A DNA stretch of 64,000 nucleotides, taken from positions 62,001 through 126,000 of the forward strand of contig NZ_JACGWT010000003.1 in NCBI RefSeq assembly GCF_014137855.1, read 5' to 3'. Both the position numbers and the translations under genes were made by a program. This stretch comes from Microlunatus kandeliicorticis (GTDB taxonomy: Bacteria; Actinomycetota; Actinomycetes; Propionibacteriales; Propionibacteriaceae). How positions within the stretch are numbered: the first letter of the stretch is position 1; each line of letters starts with the position of its first letter. The notes under the pieces are model-generated. The model searched no databases. It saw nothing but the letters and a program-made list of their open reading frames with translations, and was not told the origin of the DNA. This document shows, piece after piece, positions 6,607-61,390 of the stretch.

Positions 6607-6628
6607 AGCCTATGCCCGGCCACCGACA
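6607..6628 (-). promoter_or_regulatory. DNA-damage type (PafBC-like) promoter of uvrB
   Basis: Minus strand TGTCGGTG (6621-6628), then 8 nt, then TAGGCT (6607-6612), with the ATG 7 nt further on. The spacing and sequence equal the tTGTCRgtg-N8-TAnnnT consensus known for LexA-independent damage promoters in mycobacteria. No LexA palindrome is visible nearby. Confidence 0.72.
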
Positions 6629-49469: not shown

Positions 49470-49578
49470 CCCGGGCTGTCGTTTCGCGGCGCTGCCCCCG
49501 CAGCCTGACCTGCGAGCCTCGCGTCATCCCCCCGACGGGTCACGCGGAGCTCTGCGGCGGCAGCCGGTGCGGCTCGTG

Positions 49579-49670
49579 CCCCGAGGTTTCAGCCCGAGAC
49601 CCTGGATGGCCCACCTGGCACCGGGGAAGGTGCGCCAGGGAGACCGGGTCTCGGGGCTGAAGCCCCGGGA
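49579..49670. repeat. Long imperfect palindrome between mraZ and rsmH
   Basis: The outer arms GGTTTCAGCCCGAGACCC (about 49586-49603) and GGGTCTCGGGGCTGAAGCC (about 49646-49664) pair with one bulge and extend into CCCCGAG/CCCCGGG. A second, inner palindrome (CCTGGCACC / GGTGCGCCAGG) fills the loop. This is a folded element rather than a simple terminator and resembles REP-type palindromes. Confidence 0.7.
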
Positions 49671-49727
49671 CACGGGCCGCGCCCGTCTGGCTGTCGCCAG
49701 CTCCCGGGCCTGTGCCGCCCCCACGGA

Positions 49728-55418: not shown

Positions 55419-55844
55419 TCAGAAGCCGGATTCGTCCCGGCGGCGCTTCCAGCGCTCTTCCATCTTGTCCATGAAGCCCTGGCCGGAGGTGCCGGTCGAG
55501 GAGCCCTGGGGCTTCGGGCGGTCGTTGGACCGGCCCGGGACGGTCTGCGCGCCGGTCACGTGCTGCCAGGCGTAGATCGCGGTCACCGCGGCGGCGACCA
55601 TGACCACGAAGCCGACGACGCTGACCAGGATGCCGACGACCGGGTGGTTGGACATCCCCACCGCCATCCCGCCGACCAGCATGCCGAGACCCAAGAAGAA
55701 GCCGACGCCGGCGATGGCTGCACGCCGTCGGTGCACCCGTCGGGTCCCCTTGCCGCTCAGCGTGTGAACGAGCTTCGGGTCCTCGGCCGCGAGCGCCGCC
55801 TCCATCTGCTGGAGCAGTCGCTCTTCGTCTTCTGAGAGGGCCAC
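55419..55844 (-). CDS. DUF3040 domain-containing membrane protein
   Basis: A 141-residue protein: a cytoplasmic start (VALSEDEERLLQQMEAALAAEDPK) typical of DUF3040, two membrane helices, and a Gly/Ser/Lys-rich tail ending FMDKMEERWKRRRDESGF. GTG 55844 has GGGAGG seven bases upstream and aligns with the family start; a longer reading from 55874 does not. Similar genes lie near mraZ in Mycobacterium (Rv2169c). Function is unknown. Confidence 0.87.
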   Translation of the reverse strand: MALSEDEERLLQQMEAALAAEDPKLVHTLSGKGTRRVHRRRAAIAGVGFFLGLGMLVGGMAVGMSNHPVVGILVSVVGFVVMVAAAVTAIYAWQHVTGAQTVPGRSNDRPKPQGSSTGTSGQGFMDKMEERWKRRRDESGF

Positions 55845-56112
55845 GGGCCACCTCCCACGCGTCTCGTCGGTCACCGCGGTCGACGGATCCTCCGGAGCCT
55901 GGACGGGACCGGCGGGTTCGACTGCAGACCACCGGTGCCGGTGGTCATTCGTCAGTCTAGGCGCGCCCTGGGTCCAGCGAAACCCATCGGCCCTTTATCT
56001 CGCCGCGGCCGTCGACCCGGGGTTCAGCCTGCTCACACGCTGGCCCCGTCCTCGACGCTGTCGCGCCTCGTCGGGGCTCTGTACTGGGCTCTGCTCGGGG
56101 CTCTGTCCGGGC

Positions 56113-57309
56113 TCACTCGGGGGCTGCGAACGGGCTCAGCCGACGTCCGGTGCCGGCCAACGCGGCCCGTTGCACCGCGCCGGGCCCGAACCGGGCGACC
56201 GCCGCGTCGACCGCCTGCTCGGCCTCCCGCCAGCCGTGTTCGGGGTCGGTGAGGAACGGCTGCCGGCTGGTCCGGTCGGCCTCGACCACGTTCTCGACCC
56301 GGACGCCCACCCGACGGATCCGGGCCTTCGGCACCTGGAGGGCGCGATAGAGCCGGACGGCCTCGGCGTGGATCTCGGTGGTGACGTCGGTGGGCGTGGT
56401 CAGCGTGGCCGACCGGGTGATCGCGCGGAAGTCGGCGAACCGGATCCCGAGCGTGACCGTCCGGCCGAGCAACCCGGCCTTGCGGAGCCGTCGCGCGGTC
56501 CGGGCGGCCATCCGCAGCAGCTCGCGCTCGACCACGGCGGGGTCGTCGGTGTCGGCGCCGAGCGTCTCCTGCGACCCGACGCTGCGTTCGCGTGGGCCGG
56601 TCACCACCCGGCGGCCGTCGCGCCCCCAGGCCAGGTGCTGGAGATAGATGCCCTGGTGCGGCCCGAAGGTGTTCCGCAGCGCGTCGCGCGGGGCGTGCGC
56701 GAGGTCACCGACCGTGAACAGCCCCAGCCGGTGCAGCTTCTCGGCGGTCGGCTCGCCCACCCCCCACATGTCCTCGACCGGGCGCGGGTGCAGGAAGGCC
56801 GTGACCTGGTCGGGCGGCACCTCGACCAGTCCGTCCGGCTTGGCGGCGCGCGAGGCCACCTTGGCCACGAACTTGGTCGGGCCGATCCCGACCGAGCAGG
56901 TGATCTGCTGCTCGTCGGCCACCGTCGCCCGCAGCCACTCGCCGATCTGGGCCGGCGGCCCGAGACGGCGGATCGCTCCGGTCAGGTCGAGGTAGGCCTC
57001 GTCGATCGAGGCCACCTCGACGGTCTCGGTCAACGTCTCGAAGATGGCGGCGATCGCCTTGGACACGGTGGTGTAGGCGTCGAAGTCGGGGTGCAGCACC
57101 ACCGCGTTCGGCACCAGCCGCATGGCCCGCGCCATCGGCATGCCCGAGGTCACACCGAACCGCCGGGCCGGGTAGGTCGCCGACAGCACCACCCCGCGCC
57201 CCTGCCCGCCGACCAGCACGGGGGCGTCCCGCAGATCGGGCCGACGGCGCAGCTCGACCGAGGCGTAGAACGCGTCCATGTCGACGTGCATGATCACCGG
57301 GGCGCTCAT
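56113..57309 (-). CDS. dinB: DNA polymerase IV (DinB), Y-family translesion polymerase
   Basis: A 398-residue Y-family polymerase. Catalytic acids are D10 in HVDMDAFYASVE and D103/E104 in ASIDEAYLDLT; the helix-hairpin-helix thumb is MWGVGEPTAEKLHRLG, and a little-finger domain follows. It copies past lesions with low fidelity. It is third in a minus-strand series after the HEPN and methyltransferase genes, 76 bp after the methyltransferase stop. The far-upstream promoter carries both PafBC-like and LexA signals. Confidence 0.96.
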   Translation of the reverse strand: MSAPVIMHVDMDAFYASVELRRRPDLRDAPVLVGGQGRGVVLSATYPARRFGVTSGMPMARAMRLVPNAVVLHPDFDAYTTVSKAIAAIFETLTETVEVASIDEAYLDLTGAIRRLGPPAQIGEWLRATVADEQQITCSVGIGPTKFVAKVASRAAKPDGLVEVPPDQVTAFLHPRPVEDMWGVGEPTAEKLHRLGLFTVGDLAHAPRDALRNTFGPHQGIYLQHLAWGRDGRRVVTGPRERSVGSQETLGADTDDPAVVERELLRMAARTARRLRKAGLLGRTVTLGIRFADFRAITRSATLTTPTDVTTEIHAEAVRLYRALQVPKARIRRVGVRVENVVEADRTSRQPFLTDPEHGWREAEQAVDAAVARFGPGAVQRAALAGTGRRLSPFAAPE

Positions 57310-57385
57310 GACCGGTCGTCCGCCGGCCGTGACGACGACCGCTCGGGTCGTTGGGGTCGTCCGGCCGGCCGGTGCGCGGACGGGC

Positions 57386-58165
57386 TCAGCCGGCCAGCTC
57401 GGCGAAGACGTGCACCGCCGGCGCCAGCGCCCGGAAGGCCGGGTCGGTGCTCAGCGCCCGTTCCAGCGTGGCCAGCTCCTCGTGCGCCGCTGCGTCGGAC
57501 TCGACCAGCGCCTCGGGGACGTAACCCGCGACCGCCCCGACGCCCTCGGAGGACACGATCCGGAAGCCCGCCTCGACCACCAGCTCCTCGACCTGCTCGA
57601 GGTCGAAGCGTCGCCGGTCCTGCCAGGTCCGCAACGCCGAACCGAGGTGGCCGGCCAGCGCCTGCCCGAGCACCACCGAGCGTCGCAGCCCGACCACCAG
57701 GCTCAGCGCACCCCGGGGTCGGAGGGCGGCCGCCACCGCGGTCAGCGCCTGCTCCGGGTCGTCGACCACCTCGAGCACCCGGTGGCAGACCACCACGTCG
57801 GCCGCGCCGGCCCCGACCAGCTCGACCAGCTCGCTCGCGTCGCCCTGGACTCCCCGGATCGACCCGGTCGCCCCGGCTCCGGCACCCCGGGCCCACTCCG
57901 TCGCCCGGCGCTCCAGCGAGGCGAGCGCGTCGAGGTTCGGGTCGATCACGGTCAGCGCATGGCCCTGGTCGGCCAGCTGCGAGGCGAAGGTGCCGGTGCC
58001 GCCGCCGAGGTCGATCACCCGGCAGGGCAGTTCCGGACGGGTCCGGGCGGTCCAGGCCGCGAGCTCCTCGGTCAGCCGCTCCATCAGCACGGTGTCGGCC
58101 ACCGGACGGCGCCGACCTGCTGACCCGCGCCGCGAGCCCGGCGCTCCGGCTGCTGGCTGGATCAC
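57386..58165 (-). CDS. Class I SAM-dependent methyltransferase
   Basis: A 259-residue methyltransferase: SAM motif I VIDLGGGTGTFASQLA, motif II acidic residue in LTVIDPNLDAL, and motif IV region ADVVVCHRVLEVVDDPEQAL. The substrate is unknown. GTG 58165 has GGGAG about eight bases upstream; a GTG at 58102 is the alternative. A TAGGCT hexamer near 58246-58251 may give it a promoter of its own, in addition to read-through from the HEPN gene. Its position between HEPN and dinB genes suggests a nucleic-acid or stress role, which is inference. Confidence 0.88.
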   Translation of the reverse strand: MIQPAAGAPGSRRGSAGRRRPVADTVLMERLTEELAAWTARTRPELPCRVIDLGGGTGTFASQLADQGHALTVIDPNLDALASLERRATEWARGAGAGATGSIRGVQGDASELVELVGAGAADVVVCHRVLEVVDDPEQALTAVAAALRPRGALSLVVGLRRSVVLGQALAGHLGSALRTWQDRRRFDLEQVEELVVEAGFRIVSSEGVGAVAGYVPEALVESDAAAHEELATLERALSTDPAFRALAPAVHVFAELAG

Positions 58166-58329
58166 TCGCGGTCTCCCGTCGGCTCCGGCCGCGCTCCCGG
58201 CGGCCGGCTCCGACGGCGTCCGGACCGGCGTGCGGCTCCGGGCGCCAGCCTAGCCACGGCGGGACCGGGTCCGGCCGTCGACGCGTCCGCGGCCCGCCGC
58301 GCCGGCCCACGGCGGGTTCGGCGGTGGCG

Positions 58330-58878
58330 TCAGCGGTGGCCACGACCCACGCCCGGAAGGACCACCGAGAGCGCCGAGGTCGGGGAGGACGTGGCGGACC
58401 AGGAGGTCGACGGCGGCGGCGAGACCGGACCGAGCCGTTCGACCATGGCCTCGGCCAGGGTGCAGAACGAGGAGGCGTCCCGGGCCAGGTCGTCCGCCTC
58501 GCGGGCGGTCACCCGGGAGCGGTCCCCCTGCTCGACGGCCAGCCGCCGCGGCTGGAGGGCCGCGAAGTAGGCGGCCCAGCCGGTCAGCTCCGGTGCGGCC
58601 GCCGCCAGCAACGACCAGACGTCCCGCGGCGCGGCGACCGACGGACCGGCGCTCCCGCGGCCGGCGACCTCCGGTCGGCGACGGAGCGGACGCACCGAGA
58701 GCACCACCGCCGCGACCCGCATCGCCGCGCGGTGCGCCAGCACGTACCGGGTGTCGGTCTCGGGGGTCAGCAGCGCGACATCGGCGGCCACCCGGGCGCG
58801 GCGCAGGTCCGCGTCGAGCCGTGCCTCGGGGGCCTCCGTGCGGCCGCCGGTCGGGGTCAGGCTGTCCAGCACGGTCAC
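58330..58878 (-). CDS. SAV_6107-family HEPN domain protein
   Basis: A 182-residue all-helical protein resembling the SAV_6107 HEPN family: RARVAADVALLTPETDTRYVLAHRAAMR-type start (R44 and H49 fit an R-x4-H spacing), then DVWSLLAAAAPELTGWAAYFA and VTAREADDLARDASSF. HEPN domains are often RNases or nucleotide-binding partners; activity here is not proven and this R-x4-H is not at the usual C-terminal site. GTG 58878 has AGGAGG five bases upstream and overlaps the stop of an upstream 90-codon frame by 4 bp. Confidence 0.82.
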   Translation of the reverse strand: MTVLDSLTPTGGRTEAPEARLDADLRRARVAADVALLTPETDTRYVLAHRAAMRVAAVVLSVRPLRRRPEVAGRGSAGPSVAAPRDVWSLLAAAAPELTGWAAYFAALQPRRLAVEQGDRSRVTAREADDLARDASSFCTLAEAMVERLGPVSPPPSTSWSATSSPTSALSVVLPGVGRGHR

Positions 58879-59127
58879 GGTGCCTCCTGGTCGCTCTCCG
58901 GTCTCGGTGTTCGCGACGGCGACCGCCGGTCCGCTGCCCTTGGCCACCCGGTGCGGCGCAGCGCACAGGGCGCCGCTGACCGGCGGAGGACGTGGGAAGG
59001 CCGACCGGCGACCCCGGGCGGACGGGGGTCGAGTCCGTCCCGCCCGGGGTACCGCCGTGTGCGCAGGCCGCGAACGCTGCGCCTCGTCGGGGTGCCGGCG
59101 CGACCGATCTTCCCCAAGTCAGCCGTT
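58879..59127 (-). other. Leader region before the HEPN gene with an uncertain 90-codon frame
   Basis: An open frame on the minus strand runs from GTG 59147 to a stop at 58875 that overlaps the HEPN start as GTGA. Its product is Arg/Pro-rich with no recognisable domain, and by hand count only ~80% of codons end in G or C, below neighbouring genes. I see no other gene here. It may be plain untranslated leader or a translated leader peptide. Confidence 0.3.
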
Positions 59128-59143
59128 TCGAACACCCGTTCGA
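59128..59143. promoter_or_regulatory. LexA binding site (SOS box)
   Basis: TCGAAC-ACCC-GTTCGA is a perfect 6-4-6 palindrome matching the actinobacterial/Gram-positive LexA consensus TCGAACN4GTTCGA. It lies 9 bp downstream of a TAGATT -10 hexamer reading toward the HEPN-methyltransferase-dinB genes, a position where LexA would block transcription. Confidence 0.85.
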
Positions 59144-59152
59144 ACACCGATC

Positions 59153-59174
59153 AATCTACACGCGGCCTCCGACA
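59153..59174 (-). promoter_or_regulatory. PafBC-like damage promoter upstream of the HEPN-dinB group
   Basis: Minus strand TGTCGGAG (59167-59174), 8-nt spacer, TAGATT (59153-59158): the same architecture as the uvrA and uvrB promoters with TG changed to AG at the end of the first block. A TTGACG at 59178-59183 is a possible -35 but would need a 19-bp spacer. Confidence 0.6.
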
Positions 59175-59248
59175 GTCCGTCAAGAGCCGCCGTCGGCGGG
59201 TCGCGAGCCGCTCGCCGGTCCGCGATCCGGGCCGGGCACCGGTCCGGC

Positions 59249-60010
59249 TCAGCCGTCGCTGAGGTCGATCACCTCGAACAGGGTCGCCCGGGGCGCGTCG
59301 AACCGGGTCGCGGCCTGTCGGGCCAGCCCCTCGAGGAACTCCTCGGGGTCGAAGGCGTAGCTCAGGCCGTCGATGTAGGCGCGGTGGGCCTGCAGCGAGG
59401 CCACCCCGCGGTCGTAGGTGGCGGTGATGTCCACCCCGTGCGTGGGCCGGGCCGACCCGGCTACCCAGACCTGCCGGACACCCGCCCACGGCTCGATCCC
59501 GGTGCCCGGGGCGACCTGGTCCCGGAAGACCCACCGGTTCGCGGCGTCGCGGACCGCGTCCAGGGTGGCTCGGCCGACGGCGATGTGGTCGGCCTGGTTG
59601 AGCGGTCCGTCGTCGCCCCAGCGGGGTCCGAAGTTCTGGGTGATCACGATCTCCGGGCGGTGCCGACGGATCGCGTCGCACAGCAGGGCGCGCAGCAGGA
59701 CGCCGTACTCGACGACGCCGTCGGGCAGCCCGAGGAACTCGACCCGGTCGACGCCGACCACGGCCGCCGACTGTCGCTCCTCGGCCTCGCGGAGCGGTCC
59801 GCACTCCTCGGGGGCGATCGCGTCGATCCCGGCCTCACCGCTGGTGGCGAGCGCGTAGACCACCCGCTTGCCCTGACCGGTCCAGCGCGCGACCGCGGCG
59901 GCCGATCCCCACTCGAGGTCGTCGGGGTGGGCGACCAGGCAGAGCGCCCGCTCCCAGTCCTCGGCCACCGGCGGGAGCTTCGCGGGAGCGGGTGCGGCGG
60001 TCTCGGTCAT
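59249..60010 (-). CDS. PIG-L family deacetylase
   Basis: A 253-residue zinc deacetylase of the PIG-L/MshB family. The metal motif is LVAHPDDLEWG (AHPDD), with the second His probably in LNQADHIAVG. Relatives remove N-acetyl groups from GlcNAc-containing molecules, including mycothiol precursors and conjugates; the substrate here is unknown. ATG 60010 lies 7 nt after TAGCGT, which suggests a leaderless start. It is divergent from the oxidoreductase gene with a 60-bp shared control region. Confidence 0.9.
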   Translation of the reverse strand: MTETAAPAPAKLPPVAEDWERALCLVAHPDDLEWGSAAAVARWTGQGKRVVYALATSGEAGIDAIAPEECGPLREAEERQSAAVVGVDRVEFLGLPDGVVEYGVLLRALLCDAIRRHRPEIVITQNFGPRWGDDGPLNQADHIAVGRATLDAVRDAANRWVFRDQVAPGTGIEPWAGVRQVWVAGSARPTHGVDITATYDRGVASLQAHRAYIDGLSYAFDPEEFLEGLARQAATRFDAPRATLFEVIDLSDG

Positions 60011-60041: not shown

Positions 60042-60063
60042 TGTCGGCGCTCGCACCTAGCAT
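60042..60063 (+). promoter_or_regulatory. PafBC-like promoter candidate of the FAD-type oxidoreductase gene
   Basis: TGTCGGCG (60042-60049), 8-nt spacer, TAGCAT (60058-60063), then 7 nt to the GTG at 60071. It differs from TGTCRGTG at one base. The gene has no known repair role, so this tests how specific the motif is. Confidence 0.45.
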
Positions 60064-60070
60064 CGTCGCC

Positions 60071-61390
60071 GTGCCGAGACCGACCACGCCCGCCGTGGTG
60101 CTCGGCGACGGCCTGGCCGGGATGGCCGCCGCCGCCCGGCTGGCCAAGAACGGCCACGCGGTCACGCTGATCGGCAACGGCCGCCTGGGTGACCGCTGGG
60201 CACCGGCCGACGGGCCGGCGCCCGACCTCTCGCCGACGGTGCTGTCGTTCCCGGCCCCGTGGCGCGACCTGTTCCGCAAGTCCGGGCGACCGCTCGAGGA
60301 GGAGCTCCGCCGGTCCGGGCTCGAGCTGGTGCCGGCACCGCCGACCCGGCACCTGCTCGCCGACGGCTCCGTGCTCGACCTGCCGGTCGGCCGGGCCGAT
60401 CAGCTCGACGCGGTCCGCCGGTTCGCCGGCGACCGCGCCGCCACCGCCTGGCGGGACCTGGTCGACGGCCTCGGCGACGTCTGGCAGGCGCTGCGGTTCC
60501 GTGGGGTGGAGACCCCGCTGGCCGACGCCCGCACCCTCGACCCGCCGACGCTCGCCGCCCTGTGGGCCGACCGGGCGGTGGCCGACCTGGCCGCTGCGCT
60601 GCCGGACCGGCGACTGGGGGCGCTGGTCGCCGCGACGGCCACCGAGGCCGGTTCCGACCCCGCCCGCACCCCGGCGCTGGTCGCCGCCGGGCTCTTCGTC
60701 GAACGCACCTTCGGCCGATGGTGCCTGCGCCGACCCGAGCAGCCCGGCCGGCCGGTGCCGCTGTCGGTGCTGGTCGGTCTGCTCACCGACCGGCTCGCCC
60801 TGCGCCGGGTGGTGGTGCGGACCGGTGCGCTCGAGGCGGTGCAGACCGACCGCGACGGCATCGCGGGCGTGCTGCTCACCGACGGCACCCGGCTGCCGAC
60901 CCGGCTGCTGGTGGCCAGCGGCGGTCTGGACGCGGTGACCTCGCTCTGGGCCCGGCTGCCGCTCCGGCTGACCGAGCGGAGCGCCCGGGCCGAACGCCGT
61001 CGGCTCGGCCGGTGCCGACCGGCCCCCGTCCCGGCGTCCCGTCCCGGCCCCTGGCCCGACGAGCGCGCCGAGGACCGCACCGGCGGGCTCCGGTCCGCGT
61101 CACCGCTCGAGTGCCGCGCGTACGGGCCGGACGGGGGCGCGCTGCTCCGGGTCCTGCACCGCCGCCCGGACGCCGAGGCGGTGGTGACCGACCACACGAC
61201 CGCGGCCGGGGACGGGATCGGTCCGGTCGGGGTGGCCTGGGACGGACTGGACGGCTGGCTGGACCGGCCGCCGACGGTCAGCGCCGTGCCCGGGTTGCGG
61301 CTGGCGGGACCGGTCTCCCGATCCGGTTCCGGACCGGACCGCGAGCTGCTCAGCGCCGCGCTCGCGGCCACCGCCGACGCCGCCCGGTGA
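60071..61390 (+). CDS. FAD/NAD(P)-binding oxidoreductase-like protein (amine oxidase/phytoene desaturase fold)
   Basis: A 439-residue protein with an N-terminal dinucleotide-binding loop VVLGDGLAGMAAAARLAKNGHAVTLIG, so it should bind FAD. The middle resembles the NAD(P)/FAD-dependent desaturase or amine oxidase superfamily, but the canonical C-terminal FAD motif is weak. The C-terminal third is Arg/Pro-rich and low in conserved features. Substrate unknown. Leaderless start at GTG 60071; the gene ends 44 bp before helD. Confidence 0.72.
   Translation: MPRPTTPAVVLGDGLAGMAAAARLAKNGHAVTLIGNGRLGDRWAPADGPAPDLSPTVLSFPAPWRDLFRKSGRPLEEELRRSGLELVPAPPTRHLLADGSVLDLPVGRADQLDAVRRFAGDRAATAWRDLVDGLGDVWQALRFRGVETPLADARTLDPPTLAALWADRAVADLAAALPDRRLGALVAATATEAGSDPARTPALVAAGLFVERTFGRWCLRRPEQPGRPVPLSVLVGLLTDRLALRRVVVRTGALEAVQTDRDGIAGVLLTDGTRLPTRLLVASGGLDAVTSLWARLPLRLTERSARAERRRLGRCRPAPVPASRPGPWPDERAEDRTGGLRSASPLECRAYGPDGGALLRVLHRRPDAEAVVTDHTTAAGDGIGPVGVAWDGLDGWLDRPPTVSAVPGLRLAGPVSRSGSGPDRELLSAALAATADAAR

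Follow-up and report, generated by a model that had tools for sequence, protein, structure and literature searches.

Single-stranded DNA switches on PafBC, which directs the housekeeping polymerase to promoters bearing a -26 motif (PMC11804915), and the consensus of these PafBC/RecA-NDp promoters is tTGTCRgtg, 8 nucleotides (nt) and TannnT (PMC5656591). Genes bearing both LexA and PafBC motifs are already known (PMC8223512), but in the open-licence full text searched we met no description of one promoter shared by LexA and PafBC, or of a link between such a promoter and the HEPN_SAV_6107 protein family. In this report, we analyzed a stretch of 64,000 nt from Microlunatus kandeliicorticis (RefSeq assembly GCF_014137855.1, contig NZ_JACGWT010000003.1, positions 62,001 to 126,000), called the window below, in which a single promoter on the minus strand carries both signals ahead of genes for a HEPN protein, a methyltransferase and DinB. 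Our preferred reading, to which we give a probability of about 0.7, is that this promoter would act as a two-key AND gate on a damage-tolerance operon, and that an RNA leader would add post-transcriptional control.

The composite promoter and its operon

Four elements make up the promoter:

59178-59183, minus strand: -35-like element TTGACG, 19 base pairs (bp) upstream of the -10, read from the sequence and absent from every search pattern
59167-59174, minus strand: PafBC-type (RecA-NDp, -26) box TGTCGGAG, by match to the published consensus
59153-59158, minus strand: -10 hexamer TAGATT, by sequence and by its conserved register in relatives
59128-59143, minus strand: LexA operator TCGAAC-N4-GTTCGA, 9 bp below the -10 and over the expected start site

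An earlier note on this DNA, made from the sequence alone, had placed a perfect LexA palindrome 9 bp below a TAGATT hexamer that itself belongs to TGTCGGAG-N8-TAGATT, with the HEPN, methyltransferase and dinB genes all pointing the same way. Each of these observations is borne out. By sequence scan, TCGAACGGGTGTTCGA at 59128-59143 is a palindrome with 0 mismatches, the sole such site among the window's nine LexA-like sites at up to 2 mismatches (shuffles give a mean of 2.50), and it lies exactly 9 bp from TAGATT; TGTCGGAG-N8-TAGATT occupies 59153-59174 on the minus strand, and the three genes follow on that strand. The spacing of 8 nt between box and TANNNT is the one that the PafBC/RecA-NDp consensus requires, and CTGTCGGAG agrees with the tTGTCRgtg box at 7/9 positions. 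The promoter interval borders a PIG-L deacetylase gene (stop at 59249).

In this genome, the composite pattern with up to 3 mismatches finds one exact site and one 3-mismatch site before a gene of another kind, and the reversed pattern finds 0. Across the genus, a search that held the spacing at 9 and tolerated up to 3 mismatches matched 14/20 genomes (control 0); the 3-mismatch matches L032, L040 and L041 were taken as chance by their content, and L032 was the sole match of its genome, which leaves 13 real. When spacing may vary from 8 to 10, and the box may differ at up to 2 positions and the LexA site at 1, all 20/20 genus genomes carry the composite. A class-wide exact search that used promoter letters only (spacing 7-10) matched 74/394 genomes, once each, in 32/137 genera, and its reversed control 0/394. 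Thirty of these 74 were inspected with 1.5 kilobases (kb) of flank each, as a non-random draw among the matches listed in which at least 4 are loci also present under other locus numbers: HEPN_SAV_6107 lies downstream in 28, DUF6504 in 11 and DnaE2 in 8. L237 and L238 are the two exceptions: both come from very small genomes, and a short LysM-domain protein takes the place of HEPN behind the composite. It may be reminiscent of the division suppressors whose genes stand next to lexA in other actinobacteria.

In the opposite direction, a search seeded with the HEPN protein took the best 80 of 529 confirmed candidates, namely 44 non-Streptomyces and 36 Streptomyces loci, to which the following counts refer. 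Outside Streptomyces, 36/44 loci have the composite (PafBC-type box with up to 2 mismatches, LexA with up to 1), 7/44 have LexA only and 1/44, with a short upstream stretch, has neither. In Streptomyces, TTGTCAGTG stands upstream of HEPN with at most 1 mismatch in 35/36 loci, the exception (L159) having just 153 bases upstream, and 35/36 are without a LexA palindrome at up to 1 mismatch. Streptomyces thus gains evidence for a PafBC-type element, contrary to an initial motif search in S. venezuelae, reported as suggesting that the M. smegmatis motif was not conserved (PMC9380542). As a separate observation, Streptomyces loci among L099-L167 show a CAnnAT element behind TTGTCAGTG. Across the loci sampled, the constant partner is HEPN_SAV_6107; the PafBC-type element is the wider control, and LexA is added in many families.

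The earlier note had also proposed that both signals act on one promoter, and had suggested comparing the gene order and the upstream box across actinobacterial genomes. This comparison favours the proposal, as far as sequence can, because the composite recurs in near-fixed register across families and a search made with the promoter alone leads back to HEPN_SAV_6107, at 28 of the 30 listed loci. One may instead see here an ordinary LexA-repressed housekeeping promoter, TTGACG-N19-TAGATT, whose PafBC-like box is a by-product of promoter composition. TTGAC is indeed frequent: among 98 segments, 93 carry a PafBC-type box, and of these 93 promoters 65 have TTGAC, 58 of them at a spacer of 19. The seven LexA-only loci above also lack a good PafBC-type box. 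However, across families TGTC and the G after it stay at a near-fixed distance, and the Streptomyces loci keep TTGTCAGTG mostly without a LexA palindrome and, in 0/35, with TTGAC in the 15 bases before it. A spacer of 19 bp is moreover long for a housekeeping promoter, and we consider this explanation quite improbable. The GGTG immediately 5' of the -10 is also conserved, though it lay outside all search patterns.

The genes downstream are:

58330-58878, minus strand: HEPN_SAV_6107 family protein (PF18726), Pfam expectation value (E) 7e-23, start GTG at 58878
57386-58165, minus strand: class I S-adenosylmethionine-dependent methyltransferase (Methyltransf_23), with a weak, below-cut-off resemblance to CmoM
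56113-57309, minus strand: DinB, DNA polymerase IV, NCBIfam PRK03858 at 371.6 bits against a cut-off of 367
55419-55874, minus strand: DUF3040 / SCO2097 family protein, the downstream neighbour, by profile match

GTG 58878, preceded by AGGAGG, is the best candidate for the HEPN start. A terminator or separate promoter isolating the methyltransferase and dinB from the HEPN gene, named in the earlier note as what would speak against a common unit, did not appear: a consensus scan, weak for such organisms and, with spacers of 16-18, blind to the composite promoter as well, found 0 terminator-like or sigma-70-like sites between 55000 and 60200, and candidate sites inside the operon were rejected on this basis. 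HEPN was detected in 10/20 genus genomes; in the 10 genomes without a HEPN match, the same promoter and leader directly precede methyltransferase-dinB.

A covarying leader RNA

Between the promoter and the HEPN gene lies a leader of about 250 nt. Aligned from 15 genus genomes (alignment A1), it contains three hairpins:

59101-59126, minus strand: hairpin P1, loop with CUUGGGGAAG, coordinates by eye; helix 1, 5/7 pairs changed on both sides
59061-59083, minus strand: hairpin P2, loop UUCGCGG; helices 2 and 3, 4/10 pairs changed on both sides
59012-59049, minus strand: core hairpin P3, loop CUCGACCC; helix 4, 13/18 pairs changed on both sides

A single-sequence fold draws P1 otherwise than these coordinates do. 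On A1, RNAalifold predicts 35 pairs, 22 of them with pairing-keeping changes on both sides, against 9.0 in shuffles (0/500 reach 22). Sliding the pairing partners makes the score collapse, although the structure had been predicted from the tested alignment itself, which favours this test.

A model (R1) gives one strong match in 20/20 genus genomes (E 2.6e-21 to 6.4e-9), of which 15 served to build it and 5 are independent; the match in the window, whose sequence is included in R1, spans 59004-59131 (G000:C3:121004-121131) with E 8e-11. Nine further weak matches (E 0.04-0.77), three of which overlap the strong match on the opposite strand, are probably due to chance, and a multicopy RNA was rejected in view of the one strong match per genus genome. 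In the class (394 genomes), R1 has matches at E up to 0.1 in 11: 2 of the genus, 7 of another family of the order and 2 (L053, L058) taken as chance, without a LexA box. In all seven loci of the other family the LexA palindrome is perfect, and the leader is much shorter and retains just the last hairpin. A pattern joining the LexA palindrome to CTCGACCC was found in 33/394 class genomes (control 0), with HEPN at 25 of the 30 loci read; L063, L071, L076, L077 and L089, without HEPN, were taken as chance.

The core hairpin could be followed further, at 70 of 72 loci (L115 and L170 dropped). Its own arms pair at 11.5/12 positions, against 9.1 when arms are swapped between loci, and 0/10000 permutations reach the own-arm total. 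After removal of 8 near-identical rows, the remaining 62 sequences (alignment A4) pair in 77.4% of cells, against 61.4% in shuffles (0/500), with a covariation of 0.445 against 0.197 and 48 further pair types against 32.3 (each 0/500 shuffles). Within 90 nt downstream, 33/70 loci contain a complement of the loop, GGGGTCGAG (at least 7 nt), against 5.8 expected; within 45 nt, 26/70 do, and some of the complements fall within the first codons. A pseudoknot is thus plausible in part of the core-hairpin family; a universal one was rejected, given these 33/70 loci and its absence from the window.

No Rfam family was found for the leader. On 10 genus loci, Rfam 15 matched nothing at E up to 1; on 13 further loci its two matches were an mraW RNA (L161) and Xoo5 below threshold (L073, E 0.24), both away from the core hairpin; and at gathering score it gave none at the leader in the window. 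An Rfam identity was therefore rejected. The leader is thus a covarying structured RNA without an Rfam match, and other families too have its core hairpin (loop CUCGACCC). Inverted repeats can also serve as protein sites, and a 90-codon frame opens in the window leader, so that the conserved segment might be a DNA-level operator or a small coding frame. This we hold to be very improbable, because the stem letters vary with pairing kept, unlike a typical DNA operator, and the 15 genus segments span 113-140 nt without a three-base rule.

In Pseudonocardia and Actinomycetospora (L151, L161, L166, L169), the leader of the same operon has a different hairpin, with GGGGAAG in its loop; at L161 and L166, CUUCCCCA, complementary to the GGGGAAG-type loop, lies downstream. 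Elsewhere in the window, an mraW RNA (RF01746) matches at gathering score at 49564-49681 on the minus strand.

The HEPN protein and damage control in this genome

The HEPN protein was modelled with AlphaFold2 from 29 sequences (alignment A3), at a mean predicted local distance difference test score of 83. Its Foldseek neighbours among solved structures include HEPN domains (2hsb, probability 1.00; 3o10, 0.97; 4nqf, 0.97), none with an E-value below 0.001, and a sequence search of solved structures returned two hits only, at E of at least 0.5 and with unrelated names. Many HEPN proteins are ribonucleases (RNases), and the 2013 survey of the superfamily records no catalytic motif for the SAV_6107 family, which it gives as actinobacterial (PMC3710099). 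In the literature searched, no link of PF18726 to the damage response was met, its only appearance in print being a table row of that survey (PMC3710099). It is conceivable that the protein acts as an RNase effector, stopping growth when damage is heavy and otherwise restrained by an operon partner: an R-x4-H string is present in helix 2 of most members, with His in 24/29 rows of A3. The survey's denial of the motif and the replacement of His by Tyr or Gln in 5/29 rows, Arg being invariant, make this rather unlikely. Because the survey denies the motif, and despite the string, we lean to a protein that is most likely non-catalytic and a partner of the lesion-bypass machinery, and that would probably bind nucleic acid or protein beside the bypass polymerases, as its gene company suggests. 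The HEPN_SAV_6107 family receives here a strong predicted assignment to the damage response. A HEPN gene was found in the C. glutamicum genome, where cg2381 is reported as a ciprofloxacin-induced gene of the LexA regulon (PMC5055667); a proposed identity of the two was set aside, as it could not be verified.

Both control systems have further sites in this genome. TGTCRGNG-N8-TANNNT has 31 exact sites, against 0 for the reversed pattern; 30 of the 31 were read, 2 of them without a downstream frame. Pfam matches over cut-off identify three of the genes behind these sites as recA, a UvrD helicase and a GIY-YIG gene taken to be uvrC; other sites lie before genes tentatively assigned as uvrA, uvrB, ligA, radA, xseA and mfd. 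For the uvrA, uvrB, ligA, radA and xseA readings the Pfam matches are consistent, but general or below cut-off for several, and the mfd-like fragment has no Pfam match. LexA palindromes with at most 1 mismatch number 42, against 10 for the reversed pattern. At another of the LexA sites (L002) lies a gene that presumably is ImuA'-like, with no Pfam match. Two adjacent WYL genes at 446.6-447.9 kb of contig C4 are putative pafB and pafC.

Some PafBC-type sites lie within the window. Exact promoters at 266-287 and 6607-6628, on the minus strand, precede the genes read as uvrA and uvrB, whose start codons stand about 7 nt past the -10. Another box, at 60042-60063 on the plus strand, has directly downstream a frame starting near 60071 that resembles an FAD/NAD-binding oxidoreductase, possibly an unrecognised damage-inducible gene.

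A predicted two-key gate and its relation to known systems

From the observed sequence anatomy, conservation, covariation, gene linkage and other damage sites, we propose the following mechanism. Single-stranded DNA would activate PafBC, allowing the housekeeping polymerase to use the -26/-10 element, while LexA lying across the start site would block initiation until its RecA-driven cleavage. Since the -10 is shared and the operator covers the start, expression would need both keys, with PafBC activated and LexA removed at one start site. At recA of the same genome, a 1-mismatch LexA site lies 66 bp upstream of the PafBC-type box; the two sites being separate, recA could answer to either, and the gate proposed here would be the stricter one. 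The transcript would open with the folded leader, most likely tuning translation or stability of the message once the gate is open, and would then encode the HEPN protein, the methyltransferase and DinB (DUF6504 and DnaE2 in relatives) as a damage-tolerance module. An AND gate would suit mutation-prone polymerases, which should open late.

An OR logic, in which LexA and PafBC each induce partially as at mycobacterial recA and the shared start sets amplitude only, has in its favour the known dual control of recA, uvrA and uvrC (PMC8223512) and the fact that both systems respond to single-stranded DNA. We consider it unlikely, though it deserves consideration: box and operator share one -10 with the operator over the expected start, so that bound LexA should block PafBC-driven initiation.

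Several observations weigh against the AND gate with its RNA leader. At the promoter, the box TGTCGGAG has A at a consensus T, and the 164-nt gap before the methyltransferase gene may leave room for a second promoter. As for the regulators, NCBIfam gives neither WYL gene a name and no pafA was recognised beside the pair. In the leader, the fold energy of the window sequence barely beats shuffles (z -1.49, 17/200 as good). The core hairpin is missing in many families, many composite loci having HEPN directly behind the LexA box, and the Pseudonocardia and Actinomycetospora leaders carry their different hairpin. On A4, pairs changed on both sides number 12 against 10.9, a measure that does not discriminate, as 64/500 shuffles reach 12, and partners slid by -1 still pair in 63.6% of cells with a covariation of 0.288. 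The downstream loop complement is likewise confined to fewer than half of the loci, the window not among them.

More broadly, and tentatively, since we would put it at somewhat under even odds, HEPN_SAV_6107 may be the signature of an undescribed actinobacterial damage-tolerance module (DUF6504-HEPN-DnaE2/methyltransferase-DinB) with an AND promoter, in which a new class of structured leader would be a third, post-transcriptional checkpoint on mutagenesis. The locus makes two matters testable: the integration of the LexA and PafBC pathways at one start site, and the role of HEPN_SAV_6107. As error-prone polymerases create mutations, a double lock on them in many actinobacteria would be of general interest.

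Among known systems, the mraW RNA is also an actinobacterial cis-regulatory RNA of the window, but a separate element; the covarying leader RNA described here belongs to no known family. The HEPN protein shares family and fold with the SAV_6107 branch (PF18726) of the HEPN superfamily. The ImuA'-ImuB-DnaE2 mutasome is alike as a damage-inducible module with an error-prone polymerase (PMC10421592), and relatives of the operon carry DnaE2, whereas the accessory genes here are DUF6504, HEPN and the methyltransferase. The PafBC/RecA-NDp regulon shares TGTCRGTG-N8-TANNNT, many such sites standing here before repair genes; at 19/30 of them the longest downstream frame starts at most 9 nt from the -10, while the composite instead has an operator and a long leader. 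Closest is the mycobacterial recA region, with P1 driven by PafBC and P2 by LexA, where both pathways act on one gene through the same types of box (PMC5656591, PMC11804915). The earlier note had cited this precedent of separate promoters, which recA of the present genome follows with its two signals apart. Mycobacterial recA thus has two promoters, whereas in the window one -10 serves both signals, and the composite promoter is a new form of a known dual control.

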